Part shown: piece by piece, positions 33,729 to 52,977 of the stretch | How positions within the stretch are numbered: the first letter of the stretch is position 1 | Layout: every line of letters starts with the position of its first letter | NCBI RefSeq assembly: GCF_041860085.1 | Contig: NZ_CP124747.1 | Span: 6,843,001 to 6,907,000 of the forward strand | DNA length: 64,000 nucleotides | Direction: 5' to 3' | DNA from: Schlesneria sp. DSM 10557 | GTDB lineage: Bacteria > Planctomycetota > Planctomycetia > Planctomycetales > Planctomycetaceae | The notes under the pieces: generated by a model | Databases searched by the model: none | Told to the model about the DNA's origin: nothing | The model's input: only the letters and a program-made list of their open reading frames with translations | Translations under genes and position numbers: made by a program

Positions 33729-35774
33729 TCAACCAGCCCGTTTTAATGTCTGTGCATTAAACAGACGTTGATAAAGAGGGCAAGTTTTGAGCAGCGAGTC
33801 ATGCGCACCAAAGGCAATCGCCTGACCCCCATCCATTACCAGGACATGCGTGACGAACTGCAGCAGGCTGGGTGTCATTCCGTGAGTGACGATGAAGGTC
33901 GTGCGATTTTTGGTGAAATCTCGCAATGTGTTATGAATGCATTGCTCACTCTGCGTATCAATCGCAGAAGTGGCTTCGTCCAGAATCAGAATCGCCGGAT
34001 CGCGCACGATTGCTCGCGCCAGCGCCACACGCTGGCGTTGCCCGCCTGACAGTCGATGGCCTTTATCGCCGATCTGTGTCTGGAGTCCTTCCGGCAGCCG
34101 CGAGACGAAGTCTGTCACATGGGCCTGATCCGCGGCAGCCTTCAGTTCTGCATCAGTCACGTCCGGCTTTCCATAGCGGATATTGTCCGCAATGGACCAG
34201 TCGAACAGCAGCGTCTCTTGAGTGACAACGCCGATCTGTGCGCGTAACTGCGACAGGTCGACACTTTTGAGATCCATACCGTCGACGCAGACTCGACCGC
34301 TGTGAGGGTCACAGAAGCGGGGAAGCAGATTGACAAGAGTCGATTTGCCGCAACCGTTCTCGCCCACGACGGCCACTGTCGCACCGAATGGGACCGTCAG
34401 CGTCACGCAGTCGAGAGCCTTTCTGCCCGGTTCGTCTGTGTCCAACTGAGCATAGTGGAAGATGACGTCTTCAAAGTCGATGGACTTGCTGTGACGTGGC
34501 AGGGGGAGTGCAGGGCGAGCGGTCTTGACCAGCGATGCCCGGTCCATCCAGGCAAAGACCCGGGTACAGGCGGTCGCTGACTTTTTCAGCTTGGAGTAAA
34601 CACCCGACAGCTTGCGTCCTGGATCGAGTACCCCGGCCATGCAGGTATAAAGTAACGCCAGGTCAGAAACGGTCATCTCTTCCGCGGCGAGCTGGATTCC
34701 CCAGATGGATGTCTTCTGACGCAGAACCAGATAAGCGCCGGGCAGAGATCCGATGAATACCGCGCACATTGCCAGAAATTCGACCGAGGGACTGACGAGA
34801 GCGTCAATCTTCAGAATCCGTAGCGCCTTCTCGTAATAGACGGTGTGTTCTTTGGCCAGCCGTCGCCGATGCAAACCTTCGTTCCGATAAGACTGAACGA
34901 TTCGAAAGGACGAGAAGGTTTCATCCAGCACGCGAAACAGTCGCGACATGCTTTCCATTTGTCGCTGTGCCGCTTTTTTCAGCTTCTTTCCCAGCCCGCC
35001 GAACAGCAGAGCCAGCGCGGGGGCACAGATGAAGGCGAGCAACGTCAGTCGCCAGTTTGCCGAGAATGCATAGGCGATACAGAGTGTTGCTTTGATCGGT
35101 TCGACGACGATCTTGCCCCCCAGCAGCACCATTCCATGTGCGACCTGATACAGATCAAACGTAAACCGGGACATCAGCTTGGGCGTTGTTTCCAAAGCCA
35201 GCGTCTGCTGGTCCAGTCGCAGTGTCGTCCGAAACAGTTGCTGACGAATGGACTGCATGACTCGCTGCACAACGCCGCCGACACACATCTCCTGGAAGTA
35301 AGCGCAGGTCTCCTTCAGCAACGTCAGAGTCAGGAGCAGCCCCAGGATGAAAGCCAGAAAGTTGAACGCATCGGTGGGAAGCAGCGGAATGATACGGCGC
35401 TGCAGCCAACTGAACTGGGTCACGTCCCATTGAGCTGACCGCAGCTCCGAGCGCGTCTTGCGGAGTTCCCGTTGCAGTTGCCGCTCGTTCATTTCTGTCG
35501 GGCTGCTCAGCCAGACTTTTTTGCTGAGGCGAGTTTCGAGTTCTTCGACTCGGTGAGTGCCTTCAGTCACCTGCTTCTGGGCGCGAGCCAGCTCTGCAAC
35601 GATGTGCTCATCATAGGTCTGTCCTTCCAGTATGAGCTTCATGGCCGGATAGACCAGCGAGAGCTGTGCGACCGCAAAGACCGCGGTTCCAATCGAGAGG
35701 AATACCGATACCACCAGCGCACGACGCTGCCGAAGGACAAACGGAATTAATCGTGCAAGACTCTCCACGGTCAC
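33729..35774 (-). CDS. MsbA-like ABC exporter (permease fused to ATPase)
   Basis: This is a 681-residue half-transporter. The first membrane helix (residues about 15-45) is followed by an unusual insert of about 90 residues that is hydrophilic and coiled-coil-like (VAELARAQKQVTEGTHRVEE and beyond). Then come about five more helices and the C-terminal ATPase. The ATPase has Walker A VGENGCGKST, Q-loop VVTQETLLFDWSI, signature LSGGQRQRVALARAI, Walker B AILILDEATSAID and a switch His in IVTHG. The layout resembles lipid A/lipid or peptide exporters; the insert between helices 1 and 2 is not usual in MsbA. It begins with GTG and sits near the Pth2, M50-HlyD and HlyD genes in the same orientation. 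Its cargo may be a lipid or a peptide. Confidence 0.9.
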   Translation of the reverse strand: MTVESLARLIPFVLRQRRALVVSVFLSIGTAVFAVAQLSLVYPAMKLILEGQTYDEHIVAELARAQKQVTEGTHRVEELETRLSKKVWLSSPTEMNERQLQRELRKTRSELRSAQWDVTQFSWLQRRIIPLLPTDAFNFLAFILGLLLTLTLLKETCAYFQEMCVGGVVQRVMQSIRQQLFRTTLRLDQQTLALETTPKLMSRFTFDLYQVAHGMVLLGGKIVVEPIKATLCIAYAFSANWRLTLLAFICAPALALLFGGLGKKLKKAAQRQMESMSRLFRVLDETFSSFRIVQSYRNEGLHRRRLAKEHTVYYEKALRILKIDALVSPSVEFLAMCAVFIGSLPGAYLVLRQKTSIWGIQLAAEEMTVSDLALLYTCMAGVLDPGRKLSGVYSKLKKSATACTRVFAWMDRASLVKTARPALPLPRHSKSIDFEDVIFHYAQLDTDEPGRKALDCVTLTVPFGATVAVVGENGCGKSTLVNLLPRFCDPHSGRVCVDGMDLKSVDLSQLRAQIGVVTQETLLFDWSIADNIRYGKPDVTDAELKAAADQAHVTDFVSRLPEGLQTQIGDKGHRLSGGQRQRVALARAIVRDPAILILDEATSAIDTQSEQCIHNTLRDFTKNRTTFIVTHGMTPSLLQFVTHVLVMDGGQAIAFGAHDSLLKTCPLYQRLFNAQTLKRAG

Positions 35775-36040: not shown

Positions 36041-36436
36041 TTAGAGAAGTTCCAGATGGCCGGTGATCGTGTCGATTCGCTCTGCCACGTCGGGACCAAT
36101 TGCCAGGCAGGTGCGTGTCGGGACTCCGTGGAATTCTGTTCGTCCACTGTCAGTAATCATGTGGACTTCCAGACCCGCCGCGACCGCCTGGTCGTAGATC
36201 TGGAGCAGTTCTTCCTCGCTGTTGGCACGGCAGCAGACCTTGGCGAACGCCCCTTTGAGCCACGTTCGCTCGACGTCTGAGAAATCGGATGTCGACAGCG
36301 ACCCCGTTTTGGCCAGTCGGCGAGTCAGAAATGACATCGACGCATGAGCTCCCTGCGCGATCTGTTTTCCGCGCCGCATCTTCAGATCGTGGCGCATGAC
36401 GATTACCTGTTTGATCCTCTGGGGCACATCGTTCAT
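36041..36436 (-). CDS. pth2: peptidyl-tRNA hydrolase, archaeal/eukaryal type 2
   Basis: The 131-residue cytosolic enzyme matches Pth2 in length and motifs: KQVIVMRHDLKMRRGKQIAQGAHAS at the N-terminus, KVCCRANSEEELLQIYDQA in the middle and TEFHGVPTRTCLAIGP before the C-terminal helix. It releases peptidyl-tRNA from stalled peptides. Pth2 is usual in archaea and eukaryotes but also found in some bacterial lineages; bacterial Pth would be encoded elsewhere. It lies 91 bases after the M50-fusion gene and before the ABC exporter, on the same strand. I see no strong ribosome binding site. Confidence 0.88.
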   Translation of the reverse strand: MNDVPQRIKQVIVMRHDLKMRRGKQIAQGAHASMSFLTRRLAKTGSLSTSDFSDVERTWLKGAFAKVCCRANSEEELLQIYDQAVAAGLEVHMITDSGRTEFHGVPTRTCLAIGPDVAERIDTITGHLELL

Positions 36437-36527
36437 CTATTGGTCTCGCAAAATACAGGGGGCGGAGGATGATCTCCTCTCGGTCCGTTTCCATTCTTCA
36501 AGGGGGCGTCTGGCAGTCCCATCCCGC

Positions 36528-38753
36528 TCACATCTTGAAGTGGAATGTCCGTCGTAGAGCACGCCACAGCCAGCCGAAGGTTGATCGCTGGACCGCCATG
36601 AATCTTGCGTTGCCGCGGAGATAGGGGCGCAAACCAGCGGGGGATTCGTCGAGGATCACGGTAGCGCGGTAAGCAGCTTCCTGCAGTTGTTCCCGCCCGT
36701 CCTGATCGGTTTTCGTTGCGAGCAGCCCACCTCGTTTGACGGACATCGTTTCCGGCACGAAGTCCGAATGAGCGGTTGCGATTTGCGTGATCGTCCCCCG
36801 AAACGTTTGCTGGGGCAGGTGGTCAAACTTGAGCGAAACCTTCAGCCCTTCGTGGATGTCGTAGCGATCACCCTGATTGACATAGAGCGTGGCCTGCATT
36901 AAGTCGGACGGAGCAATACTCATCAGTTCCGTCCGTTCTTCCAGGAATGCACCCAGGTTCTTTCGGTCGAGTGGCGTTCCCGTCCAGCCAACCAGCCGCG
37001 TTTTCTGTATTTCCAGGTTGGGGATCGGTTGACGGGCAGGAGCGATCACATGTCCGGCCACAGGAGCGACAACAACCAGATGCCGGATCTGCATCTCGAT
37101 CTCGCTCAATTGTTCGTCGATCGATTTCAGGCTCTCTTCCAGCAGAGCCATCTCGGTCCGGTCGTTGAGTGCCCAGGCATTTTTCTTCGACTGTTCCTGA
37201 ACCTCCCGTTGCAGCGTCAGTCGACGTTTCGCCTCGCTGAGTCGAGGGTCGTACAGCACCGCCAGTTGCTGTCCCGCTTCGACATAGTCACCCGGTTGAA
37301 CGTTCAGTTCCACCAGCTCACCGGGGACCCGGGTTACGACGTGACGCACCTCCTGTGGCTCGATCATGAAGGCGGCCCACTGAATGAAGGGGATCTTGAT
37401 CATCCCGAGTCCGCCGATGATCCCTGCCAGGACGAGGCCGGACAGGGCGAGCCTCCATTTCTGGATCGGCTTCTCGCGCGGTTGAGTGAGCTGCCTGTAT
37501 GCCGATTTCGTCATCTGAACCAGAATCCCTGCGATCGAAAAGTAGGCTACGGACTGACCCAGACTCTGCAATCCATAAGGTTTCAGTACGGTATAAAGGA
37601 ACGTCAGGATCCCGAACAGCACGAACCAGCCGTAAATCTTCGACGCAATCGCATAGAGGATGAACCAGTGCTGATTGGTCTGAGGCATGAATGGATCCGG
37701 ACGCGGTTCGATGCCCAGACAAAGTGCCGAGAAAAATTCGCCCGTCAGCTTGTCAGCCTTCTGCCGCAGATTGGGGATCTCGAGAAAGTCACTCATCATG
37801 TAGTAACCGTCGAGCTTCATCAGCGGGTTGGCATTGAAAATCACCGTGGTCAGCGTCGTGACGAAGAAGACGTTGAGACACAGGAAATGAAACAGGCCCG
37901 GCTCAGTCAGCCACCACAGAAAGATCGCAATCGCCGAGAGCACAACTTCGACGATCATCCCCGCCGCACCTATCAGGATTCGGTGCCATTTATTCTTCAG
38001 CATCCACGAGTCCGAGACATCGCAATACAAGCAGGGGCTGCCGACCAGCAGCATGACCCCCATCTCGTGACATTCGCTGCCGAACATTTTGCACGCGAGC
38101 CCATGACCAAACTCATGAATGATCTTGGAACCAGCCAGCGTCATCCAGAGAAAGAGCAGGTTAGGCCAGCCGAAAAATTGCTGGAAGGCAGGGAGCCCTG
38201 CCTGAAAGGCACGAAACTGAATGGCCAGCAGCAGCCAGGAACTCAGCACCAGTCCCACCGCTGCCGCGACGGCAATGGGATGGCACACCCAGCGCGTCCA
38301 GGGAACCATCGCCGCCAGCACCCGATCGGGGTCCCAGCCCGGCAACCGAACCGAAAGGATGTTGGTCAGGACACCAAAAGCCTTTTGTCGACGATTCTTC
38401 CGCTTTTGCTCGATTCGCGCCGAGGCCTGCCCGGGACGCACACTGTAGGCGAGGCCTTTCTGGTGCAGGTCCGAAACAAGCAACTGTGTCTCTGTTAACG
38501 TCGGGCTGATCGCTGGAAATTCACGTATCAGCTCCGCACGAATCGTTTCCAGACTCTTCTGTCCATCCAGCAGATTCAAAACTCGATACTGATCGGCACG
38601 AAGGCGGTGGTAGGTCAGGCCGACGGGATCCTTGATCACAAAGTGCGACACCCCCTGGAACTCGATCTGCTTGATCACCAGATCCATCCGCCCGCGCAGC
38701 GGAACGGGTCGCTGGCTGGAACGCAATTCCTGGGCAGGCATCGCCATCGACAT
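36528..38753 (-). CDS. PqqD-like / M50 site-2 protease / HlyD fusion protein
   Basis: The product is 741 residues. N-terminal residues about 35-107 look like a PqqD/RRE winged-helix domain (FVIKDPVGLTYHRLRADQYR, LLDGQKSLETI, TETQLLVSDLHQKGLA). Membrane helices (about 150-470) then carry the M50 metalloprotease site HEFGHG (His213, Glu214, His217) and the third ligand Asp315 in NPLMKLDGYYMMSD. From about 490 comes a HlyD adaptor half (VTRVPGELVELNVQPGDYVEAG, lipoyl loops) and a C-terminal barrel. The family is known among planctomycetes, but the substrate is not. The start is set at 38753; a GTG at 38918 would extend the protein without homology. The HlyD-only gene is 190 bases upstream, so an operon is likely. 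Confidence 0.88.
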   Translation of the reverse strand: MSMAMPAQELRSSQRPVPLRGRMDLVIKQIEFQGVSHFVIKDPVGLTYHRLRADQYRVLNLLDGQKSLETIRAELIREFPAISPTLTETQLLVSDLHQKGLAYSVRPGQASARIEQKRKNRRQKAFGVLTNILSVRLPGWDPDRVLAAMVPWTRWVCHPIAVAAAVGLVLSSWLLLAIQFRAFQAGLPAFQQFFGWPNLLFLWMTLAGSKIIHEFGHGLACKMFGSECHEMGVMLLVGSPCLYCDVSDSWMLKNKWHRILIGAAGMIVEVVLSAIAIFLWWLTEPGLFHFLCLNVFFVTTLTTVIFNANPLMKLDGYYMMSDFLEIPNLRQKADKLTGEFFSALCLGIEPRPDPFMPQTNQHWFILYAIASKIYGWFVLFGILTFLYTVLKPYGLQSLGQSVAYFSIAGILVQMTKSAYRQLTQPREKPIQKWRLALSGLVLAGIIGGLGMIKIPFIQWAAFMIEPQEVRHVVTRVPGELVELNVQPGDYVEAGQQLAVLYDPRLSEAKRRLTLQREVQEQSKKNAWALNDRTEMALLEESLKSIDEQLSEIEMQIRHLVVVAPVAGHVIAPARQPIPNLEIQKTRLVGWTGTPLDRKNLGAFLEERTELMSIAPSDLMQATLYVNQGDRYDIHEGLKVSLKFDHLPQQTFRGTITQIATAHSDFVPETMSVKRGGLLATKTDQDGREQLQEAAYRATVILDESPAGLRPYLRGNARFMAVQRSTFGWLWRALRRTFHFKM

Positions 38754-38838
38754 TGTGGCAGACTCGCGTAATCGAAAGGGAATGAGGTCAGTGCGACGAC
38801 GGCCGGATCCGTTCGAACTTGGGCCGCGGTCGTTGAGG

Positions 38839-38865
38839 AAACAGGGACTTGCAAACAGGGACTTG
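38839..38865. repeat. 14-bp tandem direct repeat
   Basis: AAACAGGGACTTG occurs twice in a row with one base between (period 14). It lies between the HlyD and M50-fusion genes and within the putative 5' extension of the latter. Most probably a small slippage duplication in the leader. Confidence 0.7.
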
Positions 38866-38943
38866 ACGATGAAGCAGTGAGGTGTACTGCCGGCATCCGA
38901 GCAGAGACCGACGTTCACCCCGTCGACTTTCGCCCGGTGGGAG

Positions 38944-39855
38944 TCAGCGGACCTTTGCGGCGACTTGTCCTTCCACTTCGATTTCCATCACCGCTTCGAG
39001 GCCTGCTCGCAGTATGTTATCTCGATTACGGACTTCGGCGTAGACTCGGGTCGTTCGGTCAATCGGCTCCGAAACGACGTCGACGAACGTGATCTTCCCT
39101 TCAAACACTTCATTCGCGTGCGAGTGGTCCGGGTCGATATTGTGCAGCTTCACGTACACTTTCGCTCCCTGACGGGCGTAAGAGAGGTCTTGAAAGGGGA
39201 CGTTGCCTTCCACTCGTACGCGGTCCGTGTTCACAATTTCTGCGACGGGATCCCCCTGTCGGACGGCTTCCCCTTTCTTGCGGTAAATCCGGGTCACCAC
39301 ACCGTCGAACTGAGCCTGCACTGAATAGGTCTTCAGTTCTGCCGCCGAGACGGCTGCGTTCAATTTATTCAGACCAAGTTCATGCTCAGCGAGTTGAATG
39401 GAGAGTGCTGCTTTATCCGCAGCCAGTCTGGCTTTATCGATTTCAAGCTGAGGGACCGGTTCCTTTCCCCCTTTCTCCACCGCGAGCTGATTTGCTTTCA
39501 GCAGTCGATTCAGTTCGCTGTCGGCCGCTGACTTGGCAATCTTCGAAAATTCCAGTTCGACTCCATTGGCCGCTTTCTTTTCGGCCACGGCGAGATTGGC
39601 CTGGGCCACTTCGTCGGCGATCAGGGCCACAAGGCTGCCTGCCGTGACGGAATGGCCTTCCTTGAACTCGACCAGCTTCAGAATTCCCGTACGGTCTGAG
39701 GCGAGTGTCACCTGATCGATGAGCGTGATGTGACACTTTTCCAGTCTGACGCGTCGAACTCCCGGTCCCTTGGAGGGGGCCTCGTCCGCCGGTGAGGAAG
39801 CTGTCAGAAGCATCAGCAGGCCAAGACAGGGAAGCGTGTGCTGTTTCACATTCAT
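38944..39855 (-). CDS. HlyD-family periplasmic adaptor, secreted
   Basis: The 303-residue protein starts with a signal peptide (LPCLGLLMLLTASSPADEA). It has a first lipoyl half (SDRTGILKLVEFKEGHSVTAG), a coiled-coil hairpin (about residues 85-170), a second lipoyl half (AQFDGVVTRIYRKKGEAVRQG) and a barrel domain (VRVEGNVPFQDLSYARQGAK). It is the minimal adaptor that would join an inner-membrane pump. GAGGAT lies 7 bases before the ATG. It precedes the PqqD-M50-HlyD gene, and the two would give both halves of a periplasmic conduit. Confidence 0.88.
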   Translation of the reverse strand: MNVKQHTLPCLGLLMLLTASSPADEAPSKGPGVRRVRLEKCHITLIDQVTLASDRTGILKLVEFKEGHSVTAGSLVALIADEVAQANLAVAEKKAANGVELEFSKIAKSAADSELNRLLKANQLAVEKGGKEPVPQLEIDKARLAADKAALSIQLAEHELGLNKLNAAVSAAELKTYSVQAQFDGVVTRIYRKKGEAVRQGDPVAEIVNTDRVRVEGNVPFQDLSYARQGAKVYVKLHNIDPDHSHANEVFEGKITFVDVVSEPIDRTTRVYAEVRNRDNILRAGLEAVMEIEVEGQVAAKVR

Positions 39856-49821: not shown

Positions 49822-52800
49822 ATGGGCATGCTCGATCTGTTCCGCAACTGGCTGGACCACAAACGAGGCCAATTCCGCCCACGTACTCGCCTGGGCTACA
49901 CAGGAATCGAACTGCTGGAAGCACGACGCGTACTTTCTCCTGTGCTGATGGGGACCACGTTGAAGATCGATGGGACTGCCGGGGCAGATACCATCTCTGT
50001 CACCCAGGACTCCAATGGAGTGAAGGTCATCCAGAACGGCGTCGAAACGACGTACGATTCCTCCACAACCATTAACACGATCAATGTTTTTGGTCATGGA
50101 AACGATGATCAGATCACCATCAACAGCGTTTTCGAGTCCACGACTCTGACGGTGGACGGAGGAACCGGAAACGACACGCTGATTTCTCCCATCACCGCCA
50201 ATAACTGGCAGGTCACCGGTCCCAACTCGGGCACCTTGAATGGGAAAGCATTCAGCAACGTCGAGAATCTGGTGGGAAGCGGCCAGATCGACAATTTCCG
50301 TTTCGGGCCAGCCGGTTTCGTCAGCGGCAATGTTGAAGGGGGAGGGGGAATTAACACCCTCGACTACTCAAGCCGGACGGCGGGAGTCCTCGTCGACATC
50401 GGAACGGGCAAGGGGACCGCGATTGGTGGTCAGTTCTCGAACATGACCAACTTCCTGGGAAGTTCCGACAACACTGACTCGCTGACCGGTTCGAATACCG
50501 CGAACGCCTGGCAGATCACCAGCGGCAACGCCGGAAATATCAATCTTCAGAACTTCTTCTCGGGGTTTGAAACCCTGAAGGGGGGAAGTGATGTGGATAC
50601 ATTCAGTTTCAGTCCGACAGGGTTTGTTTCCCGCAACGTGATCGGTGGTGGCGGGGCCAACACGATTGACTATTCCGCTCGCAGCATCGGCGTTGTGACC
50701 AATCTGCAGGCGAACACCTCAACCGCGATCGGTGGAACATTCAGCCAGATCAATTCCCTCATCGGAACTTCGGGCTCGGACAATTTGACCGGGATCAATA
50801 ACACGAACGTCTGGAAGATCGAAGGTCAGAATTCCGGCAAGGTTGAAAGTGTCTTTACGACGACGAACTTCACCGGGTACGAAAACCTGATTGGGGGAAC
50901 GGTCAGCGACACCTTCAAGTTCTCCGCAGCAGGCTTCGTGAGTGGCAGCATCAACGGAGGCCTGGGCCTGAATACGCTGGATTACTCGGGCCGCACCGAG
51001 AGCATCGTGGTGAATCTGCAGACCAATTCCGCCACGGCGGTAGGTGGTGGGTTCCTGCTGATCCAGAATCTTGTCGGCAGCAGCGGTGCGACCCCCAGTG
51101 CCTTTGACACGTTGATCGGCACCAACCTCGCCACCGACTGGTCGATCACCAGTGGCAATACGGGTAATCTCAACGGCACGTTCTTCTTCAGTTCCATCGA
51201 AAATCTTTCTGGTGGAATTGCGAACGACACTTACCGCTTCCTGCCCGTGGGCTTCGTCTCGGGTGTGGTTAATGCCGGACTGGGAACGAACACCCTGGAC
51301 TACTCCAGCCGTAACAACGGAATCGTCGTTGGCCTGCAGTCGACGTTGAATACGAACGTGAACGTCTACACCAGTCCTGCCAGTGCGATCGGAGGAGGTT
51401 ACGCCTACATTTCGAACCTGATCGGCACCTCGGACAATGACATGCTGACGGGGGCCAACTCGACAACCACGACGAACGTCTGGACCATCATGGATCGCAA
51501 TACCGGGAACGTGAATGGCAACTTCAACTTCACCGGGATCGAAAATCTGAAGGGGGGGACAGGGGTCGACATCTTCCGGATGATGGACCAGAACAGCCTC
51601 ATCACCGGTACGATCGACGGAAATTTCGGGGGCTTTAACTGGCTGGATTACGGGTCTTACCTGACTCAGGTGACCGTCAATCTGTCCAATGGCGTCGCAA
51701 CCAATATCGGAAATGTGACGAACGTGATGAACGTCCGTGGTGGTCATGCGACCAACCACTTGACGGGAAATTCTCGCGGCAATGTCCTGCTGGGTGGTGA
51801 ATCCGCAGACACGATCGTCGCCGGACCTGGCCGCAGTCTGCTGATCGGTGGGGCCGGGGCTGATACCGTTACGGGCTATTCGGCCGACGATATCGTCATC
51901 GGCAGCTTCACAGTTTACGATCACGACCTGGCGGCACTCTCGACGATTATTGCCGAATGGCAATCCGCAGACACGTTCGAGCAGCGTGTCAGCAAACTCC
52001 GGAGCGGAGTGGGGCAGAACGGCAGCATCCGTCTGGTTGCCGACGCCACGGTGCTGAATGACGCCGCACCCGATGTCATCTCGGGTGGTGCATCAAAGAA
52101 CTGGCTGTGGGGCCAGCCGGCCGAGTTCGCCGACCTGACTGCTCAGGACATCTACGACACCCCCATCAACAATCCTCCGATCCTGACGGGTTCGAGTGTG
52201 CTGAGCTACGCGCCGCTGCAGTCGGCGACGGCGGTGAACACGGCGATCACGATTACCGATATCGACAGCACGACGCTGGTCTCGGCGACGGTTCGAATCG
52301 GTAACAACTATATCGCGGGCCAGGATGCACTTGGATTCGTCCCATCGAATGCGACCGGAAACATCACGGGTAGCTTCAATGCGACGACCGGCGTGCTGAC
52401 ACTGGTTTCTCAGAACGGATCCGCGACACTCGCTCAGTTCCAGGCAGCACTTCGCAGTGTGGCCTACTGGAACGCCAGTGCGACTCCGGTGACGTCGCCA
52501 CGCACGATTGTGTACCAGGTGTTTGACGGAATTGCTTACAGCAACTCGGTCTCGAGTACGGTCTTCTTCAACTCGCCACCTGTGATCGCTGGATCGAGTA
52601 TCATCAACTACACCGCAGGGCAGGGACCGACTCCGATTAACACCGGCATCACGGTCTCTGATGCGAACAATGTGAATCTGATGTCTGCCACCGTGAAGTT
52701 GTCGAACATCTTCTTCGCTGGACAGGACTTCCTGGAGTTTGTCGGAAATGCCTCAACGGGGAATATCACAGGGAACTATAACCCGGTGACCGGTGTCATG

Positions 52801-52977
52801 ACCCTCAGTGCCGGACCAGGAGGAGCCACCGTCTCGAACTTCCAGTCTGCTCTGCGACTGGTGACCTACCGCAACCTCAGTTTGACGCCGTCGCTGTTCA
52901 ATCGAACGGTCACGTTCCAGGTGTCTGATGGCAATGCCCTGAGCAACACCGTCAACAGCACCATCATCCTCAGCTAG
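49822..52977 (+). CDS. giant repeat-rich surface protein with LEARR motif
   Basis: The product is 1051 residues with no classical signal peptide. Its N-terminus carries GIELLEARRVLS, the planctomycete LEPR-type export/anchoring motif. Residues about 45-115 are an RTX-like strand region (DGTAGADTISVTQDSNG). Five tandem repeats follow, with Trp residues at 129, 230, 331, 440 and 554 (period 101 to 114). Each has a WxI...N-x-G, ENLxGG, GFVSG, NTLDYSxR and AIGG pattern. An RTX-like NVLLGGESADTIVAG block (near 660) and two cadherin-like modules (about 790-920 and 920-1050, opening PPILTGSSVLSY and PPVIAGSSIINY) end it. It is a likely surface or extracellular matrix protein, possibly calcium-binding. 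The stop overlaps the convergent folP by 8 bases. Confidence 0.85.
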   Translation: MGMLDLFRNWLDHKRGQFRPRTRLGYTGIELLEARRVLSPVLMGTTLKIDGTAGADTISVTQDSNGVKVIQNGVETTYDSSTTINTINVFGHGNDDQITINSVFESTTLTVDGGTGNDTLISPITANNWQVTGPNSGTLNGKAFSNVENLVGSGQIDNFRFGPAGFVSGNVEGGGGINTLDYSSRTAGVLVDIGTGKGTAIGGQFSNMTNFLGSSDNTDSLTGSNTANAWQITSGNAGNINLQNFFSGFETLKGGSDVDTFSFSPTGFVSRNVIGGGGANTIDYSARSIGVVTNLQANTSTAIGGTFSQINSLIGTSGSDNLTGINNTNVWKIEGQNSGKVESVFTTTNFTGYENLIGGTVSDTFKFSAAGFVSGSINGGLGLNTLDYSGRTESIVVNLQTNSATAVGGGFLLIQNLVGSSGATPSAFDTLIGTNLATDWSITSGNTGNLNGTFFFSSIENLSGGIANDTYRFLPVGFVSGVVNAGLGTNTLDYSSRNNGIVVGLQSTLNTNVNVYTSPASAIGGGYAYISNLIGTSDNDMLTGANSTTTTNVWTIMDRNTGNVNGNFNFTGIENLKGGTGVDIFRMMDQNSLITGTIDGNFGGFNWLDYGSYLTQVTVNLSNGVATNIGNVTNVMNVRGGHATNHLTGNSRGNVLLGGESADTIVAGPGRSLLIGGAGADTVTGYSADDIVIGSFTVYDHDLAALSTIIAEWQSADTFEQRVSKLRSGVGQNGSIRLVADATVLNDAAPDVISGGASKNWLWGQPAEFADLTAQDIYDTPINNPPILTGSSVLSYAPLQSATAVNTAITITDIDSTTLVSATVRIGNNYIAGQDALGFVPSNATGNITGSFNATTGVLTLVSQNGSATLAQFQAALRSVAYWNASATPVTSPRTIVYQVFDGIAYSNSVSSTVFFNSPPVIAGSSIINYTAGQGPTPINTGITVSDANNVNLMSATVKLSNIFFAGQDFLEFVGNASTGNITGNYNPVTGVMTLSAGPGGATVSNFQSALRLVTYRNLSLTPSLFNRTVTFQVSDGNALSNTVNSTIILS

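Follow-up and report, generated by a model that had tools for sequence, protein, structure and literature searches.

A PqqD/RRE-like, M50 and HlyD fusion protein of Schlesneria sp. DSM 10557 and its probable role in the export of very large tagged proteins

What might a bacterium send out with a protein that joins a peptide-binding type of domain, a membrane protease and a periplasmic adaptor? The question is raised by a locus of Schlesneria sp. DSM 10557, contained in a stretch of 64,000 nucleotides (contig NZ_CP124747.1, positions 6,843,001 to 6,907,000), which is called the window below. The locus encodes a PqqD/RRE-like, M50 and HlyD fusion protein (P0001) and, beside it, a free HlyD-type protein (Table 1). 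In our study, the free HlyD and the RRE-M50-HlyD protein are taken to be, with fair probability, the core of an exporter for very large proteins carrying an LEPR-XLL-type tag, and not an exporter of ribosomally synthesized and post-translationally modified peptides (RiPPs) fed by an ABC transporter. The tag in planctomycetes is probably that of the PF07595 'Planctomycete extracellular' family. This reading is based on the domain make-up of the fusion, on its recurring partners (HlyD, GAF-HlyD, secondary SecA_DEAD, TolC and DUF3467) and on the operon-like arrangement of giant genes with its homologues on plasmids.

Table 1. Features of the locus and of its surroundings in the window
Feature	Positions	Strand	Evidence
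PqqD/RRE-like - M50 - HlyD fusion (P0001), 741 aa	36528..38753	-	Open reading frame (ORF), Pfam, NCBIfam, alignment, structure model
N-terminal RRE/PqqD-like domain, P0001 residues 18-103	38442..38699	-	AlphaFold2 (AF2), Foldseek, Pfam PqqD in homologues
M50 zinc motif HEFGH, P0001 212-216	38103..38117	-	H212, E213 and H216 invariant in 65 sequences
Second M50 motif NPLMKLDG, P0001 308-315	37806..37829	-	N308, P309, L310, D314 and G315 invariant in 65 sequences
HlyD / membrane-fusion half, P0001 452-723	36582..37397	-	Pfam HlyD_D23 and HlyD_3; MacA/MexA fold
Separate HlyD-type periplasmic adaptor, 303 aa, directly upstream of the fusion	38944..39855	-	Pfam
PTH2-type peptidyl-tRNA hydrolase, likely bystander	36041..36436	-	Pfam PTH2, 107 bits
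MsbA-like ABC exporter, 681 aa, likely bystander	33729..35774	-	Pfam, NCBIfam
Candidate substrate (weakly assigned), repetitive protein of 1051 aa whose N-terminus bears LEARRVLS, an LEPR-XLL-like tag	49822..52977	+	Sequence

Domains of the fusion protein

The frame of the fusion gene was open from 36528 to 38918 (796 codons), and translation from the ATG at 38753 yields 741 residues; a matching start site was found in another Schlesneria sp. (locus L063), the closest relative fetched, with 62% identity. The Peptidase_M50 profile (PF02163) matched the fusion at 30.1 bits, over its cut-off of 27.2, and the HExxH and NPxxxxDG motifs, characteristic of M50 / site-2 proteases, were located within the membrane domain. 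This middle part was helical in the structure model, and the hydropathy profile agreed with a membrane domain. The HlyD half was matched by HlyD_D23 (53.1 bits, cut-off 30) and HlyD_3 (47.5 bits, cut-off 22.2), and the model of the whole fusion, with a predicted local distance difference test score (pLDDT) of 85.5, led in Foldseek to adaptors of the MacA/MexA type. The top NCBIfam match was the daptide intramembrane protease NF041824, with 186.5 bits over model positions 22-374 of 379, short of the 300 bits required for an equivalog. The same model was matched by each of the 65 homologues scanned.

The score of the fusion with PqqD (PF05402) was 14.8 bits, under the cut-off of 23.4, and a PF05402 search of the own genome at E ≤ 0.001 gave nothing. 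Since the Pfam score alone was not decisive, the domain was examined by a homologue scan, a PDB profile search, AF2 and Foldseek. At E ≤ 0.1 the PqqD profile recognised 41 of the 65 homologues, the best at 1.4e-4, and in the PDB profile search PqqD (3g2b) ranked first with a weak E of 0.02. AF2 modelled residues 16-125 from 65 sequences with a pLDDT of 92.3, and the predicted domain contained the three-stranded sheet and three helices of the PqqD/RRE fold. The top eleven Foldseek matches were chains of seven PDB entries, all of them RiPP-pathway proteins: TbiB1 with leader (5v1u, 5v1v), PqqD (5sxy), lasso B1 with leader (6jx3), sactipeptide enzymes (5why, 5wgg) and ThcOx (5lq4). TMt reached 0.72; the best E was 3e-3, none falling below 0.001. 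The larger enzymes among these matches presumably align through their RREs. A PqqD/RRE-like domain at the N-terminus of the fusion is therefore well supported as a prediction.

The earlier note on this DNA, made without database searches, had described a PqqD/RRE-like domain, an intact M50 site and an HlyD half in one 741-residue protein. Pfam, the alignment and AF2/Foldseek confirmed that such a fusion is encoded. Of the checks that it proposed, the PqqD profile search fell short of the cut-off for the fusion itself and reached E ≤ 0.1 in the 41 homologues, and the structure prediction gave the expected RRE fold, with RiPP-pathway chains as its first matches. The free HlyD protein upstream, also claimed there, was likewise present, and its hydrophobic N-terminus resembled a signal peptide by eye.

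Conserved partners and tagged giants

The arrangement is more than a chance one: of 294 Planctomycetota genomes, 67 contain a relative of the fusion (E ≤ 1e-20), and at least 586 fusion loci were confirmed among genome contigs; the own genome holds a second copy with 33% identity. For the study of gene order, 20 loci from related genomes (one being this second copy) and the best 80 of the at least 586 contig loci, a choice biased to close relatives, were taken, and their ORFs were called and labelled with profiles. In six of the 80 contig loci the simple ORF caller gave no M50 ORF above 200 bits, which left 74 and 20, thus 94 loci, of which 93 are distinct (L049 and L113 lie on the same contig). 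Many loci were short, only 30 of the 74 contig loci having at least 8 kb on both sides, and the caller missed some HlyD genes because of ORFs on the wrong strand.

HlyD was present directly upstream of the M50 gene in 52 of 67 contig loci having at least 1.5 kb of upstream sequence and in 14 of 20 related-genome loci. GAF-HlyD was present in 47 of 74 and 11 of 20 loci, and SecA in 8 of 74 and 4 of 20. In L063, the order TolC-HlyD-M50 was followed by SecA and GAF-HlyD on the opposite strand, and a nearby protein of 1598 aa contained the motif LESRQLLSA. Among downstream ORFs of at least 60 aa at the relatives' loci, DUF3467 was the sole wide family (16 loci). This small protein was seen beside the module in both Planctomycetota and Pseudomonadota (L037:10188-10538, L149:9806-10087 and 15 further loci), which suggests a small helper.

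A full ABC exporter was found at none of the 94 loci, many of them short, and neither was PTH2; any ABC ATPase above 60 bits occurred at four. The ABC exporter and PTH2 were thus rejected as functional partners, and both are likely bystanders because they are absent from the relatives' loci. The conserved synteny of HlyD, M50 fusion and ABC gene that the earlier note had proposed to examine was seen for the upstream HlyD and not for the ABC gene, so that its idea of the ABC exporter as a partner was not supported. The short ORFs that it had expected beside homologues did not appear either: 873 small intergenic ORFs at 99 loci contained no conserved precursor kind, in a search that did not extend to daptide modifying enzymes. 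The clusters obtained were one of 14 loci, antisense to DUF3467, and three of three loci each.

In the window, GAF-HlyD and secondary SecA_DEAD were not found in the neighbourhood of the fusion. Elsewhere in the own genome, GAF-HlyD relatives lie at 3109849 and 3939039, and secondary SecA is encoded at 5453569 and 338441, i.e., two SecA-type proteins besides the one of 1216 aa. TolC relatives were present as well. The GAF-HlyD, SecA and TolC partners of the window copy are likely encoded at such distant places. The gene near 5453569 (L060:8441-10864) encodes a secondary SecA-type protein of 807 aa, is located away from the M50 genes and is followed by MarR-, adaptor- and RND-pump-like genes.

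The evidence from Pseudomonadota comes from plasmid records. A tblastn search gave 71 plasmid records with a homologue, and 22 were examined, drawn from the 40 records listed, with one record standing for E. coli/Citrobacter in order to avoid near-copies. HExxH was kept in all 22 homologues. LEPR-XLL (NF012209) exceeded its curated cut-off in 17 of the 22 records (14/17 and 3/5), in open frames of 836-12957 aa, and by comparison of coordinates the tagged ORF adjoined the M50 gene in 16 of these 17, in some across the origin of the circular record. Weaker tags were seen in three more neighbours, namely LEARYMFDAA (Variovorax) and LESRQLFDGA (E. coli), both by eye, and LEARLMFDAA (Eleftheria, 12.7 bits). 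Pseudosulfitobacter contained two homologues, each with its own adjoining LEPR-XLL giant.

Two kinds of plasmid locus were distinguished. The first kind, of ten alphaproteobacterial loci, had the typical order giant, DUF3467, GAF-HlyD, M50 fusion, SecA and HlyD, with TolC in some, and its giant was annotated LEPR-XLL by NCBI in three loci. The second kind, in several loci (Azospirillum, E. coli, Niveispirillum, Variovorax and B. anthina), had the order giant, TolC, HlyD, HlyD and M50 fusion. A profile check found SecA in nine of the ten loci of the first kind (not in Thalassospira) and in none of the 12 others. The E. coli plasmid NZ_CP081687.1 (L154) showed a compact ABC-less form, with an Ig-like giant of about 4460 aa, TolC, two HlyD-type genes and M50-HlyD; similar compact copies were present on Citrobacter and Hafnia plasmids, and many enterobacterial plasmids are concerned.

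The tag also varied with the protease. The M50 homologues next to giants with xEPRxLL[SNA]AD (10) and those next to giants of the LExRxx[FY]DA type (7 labelled) formed two clades with 100/100 support. Tag labels were given to 17 of the 22 plasmid rows, three of them assigned before the letters were seen and checked against the letters afterwards. The tag flavour thus tracks the M50 clade, which shared descent alone could also give.

The exporter and its rival explanations

If the pair exports tagged giants, the cytosolic RRE-like domain would bind the N-terminal tag of the giant, and the M50 site would cut the N-terminus in or at the membrane, near the tag; both steps are suggested by the folds and by comparison with the daptide protease. 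The conduit out may be formed by the HlyD half, the free HlyD, GAF-HlyD and TolC, as family knowledge and gene order indicate. A secondary SecA, where present, might drive the movement, to judge from co-occurrence alone; the second kind of plasmid locus falls outside this step. DUF3467 would serve as a small helper. Of the earlier reading as recognition, cleavage and export, the recognition fold, the protease and the adaptor in one protein and the conserved HlyD remain, while the ABC partner and the small precursor found no support. A reservation made in the earlier note, that the substrate might be of a different class, fits better, the class being giant LEPR-XLL proteins, which adjoin most of the plasmid homologues examined.

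For the window copy, the link to such substrates is carried over from relatives and would hold by analogy. The candidate at 49822-52977 has a basic N-terminal stretch and may possibly be a substrate of the module; it had no Pfam family at E ≤ 0.01 and scored under the NF012209 threshold of 17 bits, so that the assignment refers to the motif only. Motif-bearing proteins were also present in sampled stretches of the own genome. In the 1598-aa protein of L063, LESRQLLSA falls within residues 45-61, which PF07595 matches weakly (17.9 bits against a cut-off of 25.5).

Co-occurrence was examined in the 294 genomes. For the DNA pattern ExLExRxLL, set against its reversed form as a control, the values were 460/403 in fusion-bearing genomes and 824/1466 in the others (Mann-Whitney p=7e-5). 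PF07595, scored on at most 29 candidates per genome, matched at least twice in 17 of the 67 fusion-bearing genomes vs 5 of the 227 others; outside the own class these values were 6 of 47 vs 5 of 226 (p=0.0045), and for any match at E ≤ 0.1 outside the own class p was 0.02.

Several results weigh against an exporter of tagged giants. The excess of ExLExRxLL needed the own class for its significance (p=0.18 outside it), PF07595 at E ≤ 0.01 outside the own class occurred in 3 of 47 vs 12 of 226 genomes (p=0.49), and all these p-values are too kind, as the genomes are related and not independent. In the own genome, NF012209 nowhere reached its cut-off, and PF07595 gave nothing at E ≤ 0.1. The density of motif-bearing ORFs was 10.2/Mb in 27 M50 regions (5 in 488 kb, one being the M50 protein itself) and 8.4/Mb in the 80 contig loci (11 in 1311 kb), compared with 8.2/Mb in 54 control regions (8 in 972 kb). 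A clustering of LEPR-type genes around the M50 gene of planctomycetes was therefore rejected, and planctomycete substrates, if the machine does export such proteins there, would be scattered. On plasmids, no tagged giant was found in the records of Magnetospirillum and Phyllobacterium, and in Indioceanicola the distance between the tagged giants and the single M50 position listed was 45 kb or more, its second position not being listed. Qingshengfaniella contained an LEQRIAFDAA giant on a record absent from the M50 matches listed. DUF4347, a domain common in giants of the second kind, occurred in 115 plasmid records, of which 40 belong to Phaeobacter, and for most no M50 gene was listed. In favour of the exporter, among five DUF4347 proteins on records outside the listed M50 matches, four had no tag, including one of Phaeobacter, the fifth being the Qingshengfaniella giant. 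For this reverse search an E. coli query was used, since the Variovorax query matched its own record only. In 12 of the 22 plasmid loci SecA is lacking as a motor.

Among the rival explanations, the one that survives best keeps the giant exporter and makes the RRE and M50 parts a gate or quality-control protease, which cuts stalled substrates or another component while the tag is read by SecA, DUF3467 or GAF-HlyD. These three are co-encoded at many loci and could hold the receptor. Leader binding is an established function of the RRE fold, the variant of the tag tracks the M50 clade (joint inheritance being possible), and most of the 12 plasmid loci without SecA still have adjoining tagged giants, all of which argue against it; we consider this explanation unlikely. 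A RiPP pathway, in which the RRE would hold a small precursor by its leader, M50 would remove this leader and HlyD with an ABC exporter would lead the product out, is more improbable still. The RRE fold and the likeness of the RRE-M50 half to the daptide leader protease speak for it. Against it stand the 94 loci devoid of a full ABC exporter, the 99 loci without a conserved precursor-like short intergenic ORF (modifying enzymes of the window not being searched systematically) and the tagged giants adjoining most of the plasmid homologues examined. M50 proteases frequently have signalling roles, and the partner protein has GAF domains and a FecR-type regulator gene lies about 1.5 kb past the Methylosinus operon, but regulated intramembrane signalling, with M50 freeing a membrane-bound regulator and the HlyD parts sensing the envelope, is very improbable, as the annotated plasmid operons hold TolC, HlyD and giants with no sigma or anti-sigma gene seen between them.

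The exporter of tagged giants, on these grounds, is preferred. More tentatively, with somewhat less than even confidence, we suggest that it represents a distinct, ABC-independent secretion pathway of Planctomycetota and Pseudomonadota, in which a RiPP-type receptor would recognise LEPR-XLL giants, the protease-adaptor fusion would act as signal peptidase, and a SecA-type motor would serve one branch.

Known systems and neighbouring genes

The canonical type I secretion system (T1SS; HlyB/HlyD/TolC) resembles the module in its HlyD-type adaptors, TolC and, as regards candidate substrates, very large repetitive proteins. The module differs in its protease-adaptor fusion and in having no ABC transporter in the conserved unit (0 of 94 loci). 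T1SS substrates carry a C-terminal signal, whereas the candidate signal of the module is an N-terminal tag.

The module itself is already known, and its receptor domain and substrate class are the new part. According to the main text of PMC4452313, Kamneva, Poudel and Ward (2015) described a secondary SecA_DEAD / T1SS-like module of Planctomycetes and Proteobacteria, consisting of M50+HlyD, HlyD, GAF-HlyD, secondary SecA_DEAD and sometimes OEP, in whose loci no ABC transporter was found, and they termed its broader role completely unknown; Methylobacterium extorquens AM1, with a linked module, is named there. The window shares with it the M50-HlyD protein beside an HlyD gene, and these two alone remain linked there. 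That main text contains none of the terms PqqD, winged, leader, bacteriocin or RiPP; what is added here is the RRE domain and the connection with LEPR-XLL giants. According to PMC10036551, the daptide protease MpaP is an intramembrane peptidase, depends on an RRE and cleaves off the leader. The fusion is similar to it (NF041824) in having an RRE-like domain followed by M50, and differs by the added HlyD half, the score below 300 bits and the small precursor not found at the 99 loci.

LEPR-XLL (NF012209) and Planc_extracel (PF07595) are both short tags at the N-terminus of proteins that are giant or extracellular, named separately by two libraries, and either would be a candidate signal. LEPR-XLL is mentioned in a passage of PMC10868602. 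In the searchable open-licence PMC literature, by titles and abstract openings of the papers listed, no link of the module to LEPR-XLL proteins was found, and no receptor, protease or exporter assigned to LEPR-XLL or planctomycete extracellular tags. The module of 2015 had a machinery and no known substrate, and the tagged giants have named tags and, in that literature, no assigned machinery; joining them would supply each missing half. If true, a fold known for recognition in RiPP pathways would also take part in general protein sorting. The tagged neighbours of the relatives suggest a little-studied bacterial route for sending out very large proteins.

Other observations concern the neighbours and paralogues of the fusion. 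A viral role received no support, one homologue searched in phages giving no match. The downstream ABC exporter with an unusual insert, named in the earlier note, is a real gene, but it falls outside the segment 36041-39855 with which it was grouped, and the PTH2 gene separates it from the fusion. By eye, an additional charged segment of some 75 residues precedes its main membrane domain, ahead of residue 122. The PTH2 gene matched TIGR00283, an archaeal-type model, at 98.9 bits (cut-off 82), yet its host is a bacterium. In three genomes of the same family, protein-kinase-like proteins of 1800-2000 aa (L042:2956-8466, L039:9881-15895 and L051:2400-7865) were found to adjoin divergent M50-HlyD paralogues.

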